From NCBI GenBank assembly GCA_013821825.1, contig PNJK01000004.1, positions 35,293-99,292 on the forward strand: a stretch of DNA of 64,000 nt, written 5' to 3'. The notes below the pieces were generated by a model. That model was not told the DNA's origin. It was given only the letters and a program-made list of their open reading frames with translations, and made no database searches. Both the position numbers and the translations under genes were made by a program. Source of the DNA: Rhodobacter sp. Its GTDB lineage: Bacteria > Pseudomonadota > Alphaproteobacteria > Rhodobacterales > Rhodobacteraceae. Every line of letters starts with the position of its first letter. Within the stretch, counting starts at the first letter, position 1. This document shows, piece after piece, positions 5,945 to 63,987 of this stretch.

Positions 5945-6637
5945 ATGGTTGAACGACTTAAGTTTGGCCCCTCAGATTTGACCCGACCGCTGCTTCACAA
6001 GAGAGGCCGTTGGGACCAGCCGAATCGTGACCGCCCCTATCGTCAGGGGCTGAAGCGCAGTCTGGACGTCCTGTTTGTCCTTCTGGCGCTGCCGATCGTA
6101 GTGCCCACCATCATCATCGTTGCGGCGATGATCGCAGCACACGGGCATTCCCCGTTCTATTGTCAGAACCGGGTGGGGCAGGGTGGCCGGATCTTCACCA
6201 TGTGGAAGCTGCGGACGATGGTGCCGGATGCGGACAAGCGGCTGAAGGAATACCTGGCGCGCAATGAGGAGGCGCGGCGTGAATGGGAAGCCTTTCAGAA
6301 GCTGAAGAGCGATCCGCGCATCACGCAGCTGGGGCAGTTCCTGCGCAAGTCATCGCTGGATGAACTGCCGCAGCTCTGGAATGTGCTGAAAGGAGAAATG
6401 AGCCTTGTCGGCCCGCGCCCGATGATGCCCGATCAAAGCGAACTTTATCCGGGACATGCTTACTATTCCCTCCGCCCCGGAATGACCGGGTTGTGGCAGG
6501 TGTCGGACCGGAATTCTTCGACTTTCGTGCAGCGCGCGGAATTCGATGATATCTACGAGCGCACGTTGTCGTTTGCGACAGATGTCAAAGTGCTGGTTGC
6601 AACCGTTGGCGTCGTATTCCGCTGCACAGGAAAATGA
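5945..6637 (+). CDS. exoY: Exopolysaccharide priming sugar transferase (ExoY/WbaP type)
   Basis: A 230-aa polyisoprenyl-phosphate hexose-1-phosphate transferase that puts the first sugar phosphate on undecaprenyl phosphate. It has one N-terminal membrane helix (about residues 40-65, [19 protein letters not shown]), then the catalytic block: [38 protein letters not shown] and VGPRP, ending [15 protein letters not shown]. The short form without extra N-terminal helices matches ExoY rather than full WbaP. GGAGG precedes the ATG. Its 3' end overlaps, on the opposite strand, the C-terminal codons of a small membrane protein gene. Confidence 0.93.
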
Positions 6638-60686: not shown

Positions 60687-61928
60687 TCAGGGCCTCAACC
60701 TGCCGATAGCAAGCCAGCCGAGCGCGGCCATCACGCCTGCAGTTGCCAGACAGGCGGGAAGGCCCCCGAATTGGTAGCTGAGCCCCGAAAGCAGCGTGCC
60801 GATCAGTCGCCCGGCCGCATTTGCCATATAGTAGAAGCCCACGTCGCGGGTGATCCGGTCCGCCGATCCGAAGGCAAGGATCAGGTAGGAATGCACCGAT
60901 GAGTTGATGGCGAAGACGAAACCGAAGGCAAGCAGCCCCACGATCAGCGTAGCTGTCAGCGCGGGAGAGGGCGCGCCGGCAACCCACGCTGACCCGGCCA
61001 GCAGGAACGGAATCGGAACCAGCAGACCGGCCCAGCGGATGGCCTTCGCGACAATCGCGGCTTCTGGCTGGCCCCTGGCGCCCAGCATTCGGGGCGCCAG
61101 AGCCTGCACGGCACCATAAGCGATGATCCAAAGGGCTAGGAACCCGCCGATCAGGAAGAACGCCTCGCGCCGGCCCTCTGCGGTGCCGTCGGACAGCACC
61201 GTCTGGAAATAGACCGGCACGCCCACGACGAACCACACATCCCGCGCGCCGAACAGGAACAGGCGCGCCAGCGACAGGCCGTTGACGCGCGGATCTGCAG
61301 AACGCCAGCCGCCCCACTGCTCATCCGTCTTTATCCGGCCAGGGAGGCCCGCGGGCAGCAATAGCACAATCGCCAGCAGGATCAGGGCCAGAACCGCTGC
61401 CATCCCCCAGACCGCCGCCTGAAATCCGACAAGCGCCAGAAGAGCCGCGCCAAGGAAGAAGCCCAGGCCCTTGACGGCGTTCTTTGATCCGGTGAGCAGT
61501 GCGACCCAGCGGAAGAGCCCGCCAGCTTCGCCGGGTGCCAGCAGTTTGACGGCGGATTTCGAGGACATCTTGGCCAGGTCCTTGGCCACCCCCGACACCC
61601 CCTGCACCGCCATCACGAAAGCGACCGATGCGGCGATGCCCCAGCCTGGATCAAGCTGCGCCAAGGCCACCAAGGCTGCGACCTGCAAGCCAAGCCCGGC
61701 GTAAAGCGTCGCCGCCAGACCGAAGCGCGCGGCCAGCCACCCGGCGGCGAGGTTGGTAAGGATTCCGGCCAGTTCGTAAAGCAGGAACAGCCAGGCAAGT
61801 TGCAGCGGGCTGAAGCCCAAAGCGTTGAAATGCAGCAGCACCAGCATCCGAAGTGCGCCATCGGTGGCCATGAAGGCCCAGTAGGCGGCGGTGACGGCAG
61901 CATAGGCGCGTAGCGGGTTGGCGGTCAT
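60687..61928 (-). CDS. arsJ: ArsJ organoarsenical efflux transporter (MFS)
   Basis: A 413-aa 12-helix MFS protein of the ArsJ type: YAAVTAAYWAFMATDGALRMLVLLHFNALGFSP at the start, LFLLYELAGILTNLAAGWL, GVSGVAKDLAKMSSKSAVKLL and VGFYYMANAAGRLIGTLLSGLSYQF are characteristic. ArsJ exports 1-arseno-3-phosphoglycerate made by an adjacent GAPDH from arsenate. That GAPDH gene is adjacent here (62010-62951) but damaged. Arsenic-responsive control would come from the ArsR-ArsC fusion. Confidence 0.9.
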   Translation of the reverse strand: MTANPLRAYAAVTAAYWAFMATDGALRMLVLLHFNALGFSPLQLAWLFLLYELAGILTNLAAGWLAARFGLAATLYAGLGLQVAALVALAQLDPGWGIAASVAFVMAVQGVSGVAKDLAKMSSKSAVKLLAPGEAGGLFRWVALLTGSKNAVKGLGFFLGAALLALVGFQAAVWGMAAVLALILLAIVLLLPAGLPGRIKTDEQWGGWRSADPRVNGLSLARLFLFGARDVWFVVGVPVYFQTVLSDGTAEGRREAFFLIGGFLALWIIAYGAVQALAPRMLGARGQPEAAIVAKAIRWAGLLVPIPFLLAGSAWVAGAPSPALTATLIVGLLAFGFVFAINSSVHSYLILAFGSADRITRDVGFYYMANAAGRLIGTLLSGLSYQFGGLPACLATAGVMAALGWLAIGRLRP

Positions 61929-62009: not shown

Positions 62010-62951
62010 TCAGAGGCTTGCGGCAACCATCCGGGCGATATCGGCGAGGCGGCAGGTGTAGCCTCATTCGGTGTCATACCAGGCGTAGATCTTCACCTGT
62101 GTCCCGTTCACCACCATCGTCGATTGCGCGTCGATGATGGCCGGGCGGGGATCGTTGGTGAAATCGGATGACACCAGGGCGCGGCTCTTGCAGCCGAGGA
62201 TGCCGCGCAGCGGGCCGCTGGCTGCAGCTTTGAACAGGGCGTTGATTTCGTCCACCTTGGTTGGGCGTTCGACCTCATACACGCAATCGGTCAGCGAGGC
62301 GTTCAGAAGCGGCACGCGGACGGCATGGCCATTCAGTCGGCCTTTCAGTTCAGGGTAGATCATGGCGATGGCCGTGGCACTGCCCGAGGTCGTTGGAATC
62401 AGGTTCAAGAGCGCGGACCGCGCGCGGCGCGGGTCCCTGGCGGGCCGGTCGACGATGGTCCGGGTATTGGTCACGTCGTGGATCGTGGTGATCGAACCTT
62501 GGCGGAAGTCGAGCGCTTCGTGGCTCACCTTGACCACCGGCGCCAGGCAGATCGTCGTGCAAAAGGCAGCGGTGGCCAGGCGCTGCGAGCTGTCGTAGAG
62601 GTGATGGTTCACCCCGTGGACAGGGTTCAGCGCGCCGCCGTCCTTGACCGGGGCACAGACCACGACTGCCGTCACCCCGGCGGCATGACAGGGGGCGACC
62701 ATGGCCCAAGTCTTGAAGACTCCGCTACAGTCGATCACCGGATCGACGCCAAGATCTGCCAGCGCCACCGCCTCGATCGTCTTCGCATGGGTGAGGGGGA
62801 TGCGCTGGCCGTTCAGGATCAGCGCGTGCTGTTCGGCGTCGCCGGCGGGGTCGTTCAGCAGGGCCATCTCCGCCCTGGCCCCCAGGTTGATCAAGTTGCG
62901 CCGGACCGGTTTTCCTATGCGGCCAAGGCCATTCAGGGCGATGCGGGGCAT
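62010..62951 (-). pseudogene. gap: Arsenic-operon glyceraldehyde-3-phosphate dehydrogenase with in-frame TGA
   Basis: A GAPDH gene of the ArsJ-linked type. The frame is open for 295 codons, to YAWYDTE, then a TGA stands where Trp of the NEWGY motif is expected, and the same frame continues with GYTCRLADIARMVAASL and a proper stop at 62010-62012. The catalytic region reads AAFCTTICLAPV instead of the usual ASCTTNCLAPV, and about 21 residues around the SVHGR motif are missing (GDAEQHA runs straight into LILNGQR). The NAD-binding GLGRIG and the DVTNTRTIVD stretch remain. It is probably a decaying gene, or less likely has sequencing errors. Confidence 0.75.
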
Positions 62952-62955
62952 GAGG

Positions 62956-63801
62956 TCAGGGCTTTTCGGCGGTCAGGGCATCGGTGCCGATGCGGTCGAC
63001 GCGGGATTGCAGGGACATCCGGCTCAATGAGCTGAACGGCAGTTCGACAAACGCCATGATCCGGCGGCGCAACGCGGCGTAGGTCTGCGCAAAGACCAAC
63101 GCCTTTTCGGCATCCGTACCGGTGGCCTTGACCGGGTCGGGCAATCCCCAATGTCCGGTAATCGGTTGGCCCGGCCAGGGCGGGCAGTCCTCGGAGGCGG
63201 CTGTGTCACAGACCGTGAAGACAAAATCCATCACCACTGGGCTTGGCTGCTGGAATTCCGAGACGTGTTTCGACCGCAAGTCGATTGTCTGGTGGCCGTT
63301 GCGCCTGAGAATCTCCAGCGCGAAGGGATTGAGTTCGGTATTTGGTCGGTTGCCGGCCGAGTATGCGCGGAACCTGCCCTTGCCCAGATCGCGCAACAGC
63401 GTTTCGGCAAGTATCGACCGGGCAGAGTTGCCGGAACAGATGAAGAGCACATTGAAATCGGTATCGCGGGCGGCCGGGTCCTTTTGGGTCGGGAAGAGCG
63501 GGGCAAGCAGTTCGGGCCGCGCCCGGCCGATATCAAGCGCGAGATAGCCGATCAGGCTTTCCGTTGCGGCCAGATCGACGCTGTAGAACAGGGATCGGCC
63601 ATCGCGGCGAACGGCAACCAACCCGGCGGCAGCAAGGTCCGACAGATGATGCGACAGGGTGTTCTGCTTCAGCCCGAGTGCTGTTGCGATTTCGGTGGGC
63701 CTGGCGCCTTGCGGGGCAAACCGCATCAGCAGCCGGAAGACCGCCAGCCGGTCCCGGTGGCCAAGCATGGCAAAGGCGAGGGTGGCGCGGTCTGGTTGCA
63801 T
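62956..63801 (-). CDS. ArsR-type repressor fused to ArsC-type arsenate reductase
   Basis: A 281-aa fusion. Residues 5-90 are an ArsR winged helix (LGHRDRLAVFRLLMRFAPQG, LGLKQNTLSHHLSDLAAAGLVAVRRDGR). Residues 115-260 are a low-molecular-weight phosphatase/thioredoxin-type ArsC: VLFICSGNSARSILAE contains the CX5R loop, and IDLRSKHVSEF, VVMDFVFTVCDTA, WGLPDPV follow. It can sense As(III) and reduce arsenate, giving one protein for both jobs. First gene of the arsenic operon, 4 bp before the GAPDH gene. Confidence 0.9.
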   Translation of the reverse strand: MQPDRATLAFAMLGHRDRLAVFRLLMRFAPQGARPTEIATALGLKQNTLSHHLSDLAAAGLVAVRRDGRSLFYSVDLAATESLIGYLALDIGRARPELLAPLFPTQKDPAARDTDFNVLFICSGNSARSILAETLLRDLGKGRFRAYSAGNRPNTELNPFALEILRRNGHQTIDLRSKHVSEFQQPSPVVMDFVFTVCDTAASEDCPPWPGQPITGHWGLPDPVKATGTDAEKALVFAQTYAALRRRIMAFVELPFSSLSRMSLQSRVDRIGTDALTAEKP

Positions 63802-63912: not shown

Positions 63913-63987
63913 TGGAGCGGGCGATGAGATTCGAACTCACGACCCTAACCTTGGCAAGGTTATGCTCTACCCCTGAGCTACGCCCGC
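63913..63987 (-). tRNA. tRNA-Gly (GCC)
   Basis: On the minus strand the acceptor GCGGGCG pairs with CGCCCGC, with T and encoded CCA after it. D arm TAGCTCAGGGGTAGAGCA, anticodon loop CTTGCCAAG with anticodon GCC, T arm GAGTTCGAATCTC. Total 75 nt including CCA. Its promoter would lie beyond the window end. It is next to the arsenic operon. Confidence 0.96.

Follow-up and report, generated by a model that had tools for sequence, protein, structure and literature searches.

Probable decay of the ArsJ-associated GAPDH gene between constrained neighbours in a Rhodobacter arsenic operon

Analysis of a 64,000-nucleotide stretch of Rhodobacter sp. DNA, referred to here as the window, revealed an arsenic operon whose middle gene, gap, appears to be drifting after losing its function in this lineage, while constraint on the flanking genes arsRC and arsJ is still ordinary. 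We assign this reading a probability of about 0.88. Judged from its sequence, gap is most likely non-functional.

The operon lies on the minus strand of contig C4, near the contig end, in the order arsRC, gap, arsJ. The first gene, arsRC (62956–63801), codes for an ArsR-type regulator fused to an arsenate reductase-like domain and is intact by its open reading frame, profile match and constraint. A tRNA-Gly (gcc) gene at 63913–63987 is situated just 5′ of it, at the contig end. The remnant of the ArsJ-associated GAPDH gene, identified by translation, profile match and alignment, occupies 62010–62951 when followed through to its second stop. The third gene, arsJ (60687–61928), encodes an MFS exporter; its frame is open and constrained, and in the profile search it scores 511.8 bits against the NF033734 cut-off of 400, which places it in the ArsJ family. 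The closest named relatives are Rhodobacteraceae, Rhodobacter and Tabrizicola records, and the three genes are found together in every relative with a long enough contig. The genome itself is a draft of 234 contigs, 97.9% complete with 4.95% contamination, and is the only one of its species in the sample.

Read from its ATG at 62951, gap translates into 295 residues, the open frame in the ORF listing (62067–62951), ending in YAWYDTE and followed by an in-frame TGA at 62064–62066. Past this codon the frame continues for 17 codons, GYTCRLADIARMVAASL, to a second TGA at 62010–62012, where the relatives end. All of this agrees with what a sequence-only reading of the window had described. That reading took the interrupted codon to be a conserved Trp, and codon comparison bears it out within the genus, where TGG is present in 24 of 24 relatives compared; across the wider family the position is strongly but not absolutely conserved, with 75 W, 2 Y, 1 F, 1 I and 1 V (n = 80). 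An in-frame deletion has moreover removed 66 bases, or 22 codons, with SVHGR among the lost residues. The absence of this block had been noted, although its size had been put at 21 residues. In the family alignment the shortened N-terminus is atypical: the block is missing from only one of 80 members, L094, where the match does not begin until residue 46 and the contig starts 34 bases away. The deletion probably arose by slippage between short GCGCTG repeats, as is suggested by sequences from the sister group; in L117 these lie on both sides of the lost block, and in L119 part of the repeat length bounds it.

The region of the catalytic Cys, which had also been described as altered, indeed reads AAFCTTICLAPV. 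The Cys of SCTTNC is kept, but its neighbours are changed from S to F and from N to I, at places that are S and N in 80 of 80 relatives, and the motif with its neighbours is lost. A further replacement, N to T, is found in the YDNE motif. These active-site replacements fall on residues shared by 79 or 80 of the 80 family members, and, of the 119 columns with an identity of 95% or more across the family, 13 in all are altered. Against NF033735, the profile for ArsJ-associated GAPDH, gap scores 386.6 bits up to the stop and 389 when read through with one TGA inside, under the curated cut-off of 450 bits that 24 of 32 congeneric genomes pass without a stop. By score it thus falls outside the family, and by its position next to arsJ it falls within it. 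Its frame, disrupted relative to intact orthologues, is that of a pseudogene.

Constraint on the three genes was compared among extant sequences, a test that yields the load of private changes and is silent on the order of lesions. A private change is one where the window differs at a column at which all other in-group sequences agree. For gap, 25 of 202 invariant columns carry such changes (24 replacements and the stop), the count in each of 24 relatives being 0 to 4. The corresponding values are 2 of 132 for arsRC (relatives, 0 to 4) and 4 of 250 for arsJ (relatives, 0 to 7); had arsJ drifted for as long as gap, about 31 would be expected. The median pairwise dN/dS of gap is 0.177 between the window and its relatives, twice the 0.088 found among the relatives, and shows no rise for arsRC (0.147 and 0.149, respectively) or arsJ (0.116 and 0.110). 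For the ratio of branch lengths at codon positions 1+2 to those at position 3, the window ranks highest of all in gap (0.180, against a median of 0.063), equals the median in arsJ (0.086) and is raised in arsRC, at 0.234 against a median of 0.168, where it ranks fourth. Since the load on gap is excessive and those on arsRC and arsJ lie within the range of their relatives, we conclude that the decay is specific to gap. Constraint lost on one gene and kept on its neighbours is, among extant sequences, the pattern of a pseudogene.

Some of the relatives show irregularities of their own. In L120 (G025:C421, contig positions 6354–7566), which belongs to the window's sister group, gap is whole and arsJ is split over two frames, through either a frameshift or an assembly fault. 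This frameshifted arsJ has an inflated branch in the tree and was excluded from the private-change and dN/dS comparisons for arsJ. In L144 (G002:C84), the gap match extends to about residue 192, after which the frame enters unrelated sequence, the result of either a rearrangement or a chimeric contig. Five genomes (G004, G010, G017, G023 and G029) contain neither an ArsJ-type GAPDH over the cut-off nor a whole arsJ, a pattern that points to joint gain or loss of the two genes in the genus.

The gap product would be inactive, lacking 22 residues of its N-terminal, NAD-binding part and its last 18 residues, and with replacements at three active-site residues, the Ser and Asn next to the catalytic Cys and the Asn of YDNE. 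Gene decay, as proposed in the sequence-only reading, is strongly supported by the private-change load and the active-site changes. It is ordinary gene decay, and pseudogenes are common. The same reading took the open frame downstream as a sign that the stop is recent and followed the other lesions, a sequence of events that the data do not establish. The ratio of nonsense to missense among single-base changes in the relatives' genes is about 0.03, so that 30 to 60 missense changes are accompanied by an expected 0.9 to 1.7 stops, and the one stop in gap is therefore close to the expectation for neutral drift. The 17 open codons carry little dating information, and the stop may have arisen before or after the other lesions. 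Some observations speak against decay: gap has no frameshift and keeps its catalytic Cys and His, it comes from a single contaminated draft genome and lies within 2 kb of a contig end, and over the entire branch its dN/dS is far below 1, so that the loss must be confined to the last part of the branch. From 25 changes in 202 codons and about one substitution per third position on the branch, it follows by rough inference that the loss would span only the last few per cent, provided that changes at invariant columns accrue neutrally.

A shortened product with a new role, for which the TGA is the true C-terminus or is read through, is highly unlikely. The 295 open codons with one stop, the lack of any frameshift in the 942 bases of gap and the retention of the catalytic Cys and His in the alignment speak for it, but the private changes are spread along the entire gene (8, 12 and 5 in its successive thirds), near-invariant active-site positions are among those changed, and TGA serves as an ordinary stop for both operon neighbours, arsRC and arsJ. 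Reassignment of TGA was rejected: the codon terminates both of these genes and forms the second stop of gap. Most improbable is that the stop is a sequencing or assembly error in a gene otherwise decaying or working. It hangs on a single base, about 1.9 kb from a contig end in a draft assembly; nevertheless, an error of this kind accounts for neither the lost block nor the 24 invariant-column replacements, and arsRC and arsJ bear no comparable load.

It is also unlikely that the entire operon is on its way out, with gap merely the first gene to go. The five genomes of the genus without both genes are in keeping with such a loss; the constraint on arsRC and arsJ is nevertheless normal, and their changes are well under the level of equal drift. 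Decay restricted to gap remains our preferred reading, and under it the question is what arsJ is kept for. Searches of the genome's contigs gave no second copy of an ArsJ-type GAPDH, and a whole housekeeping-type GAPDH is encoded elsewhere, on C37. The earlier suggestion that ArsRC alone now protects is doubtful, because arsenate reduction needs an arsenite exporter, and a search of the genome limited to Acr3 and ArsB found neither.

In the model described for Pseudomonas aeruginosa, GAPDH makes 1-arseno-3-phosphoglycerate and ArsJ is its exporter (PMC5930303). In Vibrio cholerae, deletion of varG, the GAPDH gene, is milder in effect than deletion of arsJ; the study proposes free arsenate as the substrate of ArsJ, with GAPDH not essential for export, and adds that the glycolytic GAPDH may also form the complex (PMC9601151). 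The inference that the lesion has uncoupled ArsJ from its substrate is accordingly uncertain, given that arsJ is constrained, the housekeeping GAPDH is whole and V. cholerae ArsJ works largely without GAPDH (PMC9601151).

The window shares with P. aeruginosa DK2 and Halomonas GFAJ-1 the two families, NF033735 and NF033734, and the placement of gap immediately 5′ of its partner arsJ (PMC5930303), and differs in the premature stop, the 22 lost codons, the replaced active-site neighbours and a score below the family cut-off. The var operon of V. cholerae, arsR-varG-varH-arsJ, likewise unites a dedicated GAPDH with ArsJ, whose effect is mostly retained without GAPDH (PMC9601151). In the window, unlike in that operon, varH is absent between gap and arsJ and the regulator carries a fused ArsC-like domain; moreover, the GAPDH deleted there in the laboratory is naturally broken here.

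The lesion in gap is in itself ordinary. Its value is that of a natural experiment in which ArsJ remains under constraint beside a decayed partner, and it bears on a point disputed between studies of P. aeruginosa and of V. cholerae, namely the substrate of ArsJ and its need for a GAPDH of its own (PMC9601151, PMC5930303). Persisting constraint on arsJ next to a dead gap is compatible with an ArsJ that would still be useful by exporting free arsenate or, alternatively, 1-arseno-3-phosphoglycerate made by the housekeeping GAPDH. That this is a natural ArsJ independent of a dedicated GAPDH, held under constraint after the death of its partner gene, is a tentative proposal to which we give slightly less than even odds. 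If true, free arsenate export, or use of housekeeping 1-arseno-3-phosphoglycerate, would be supported outside Vibrio.
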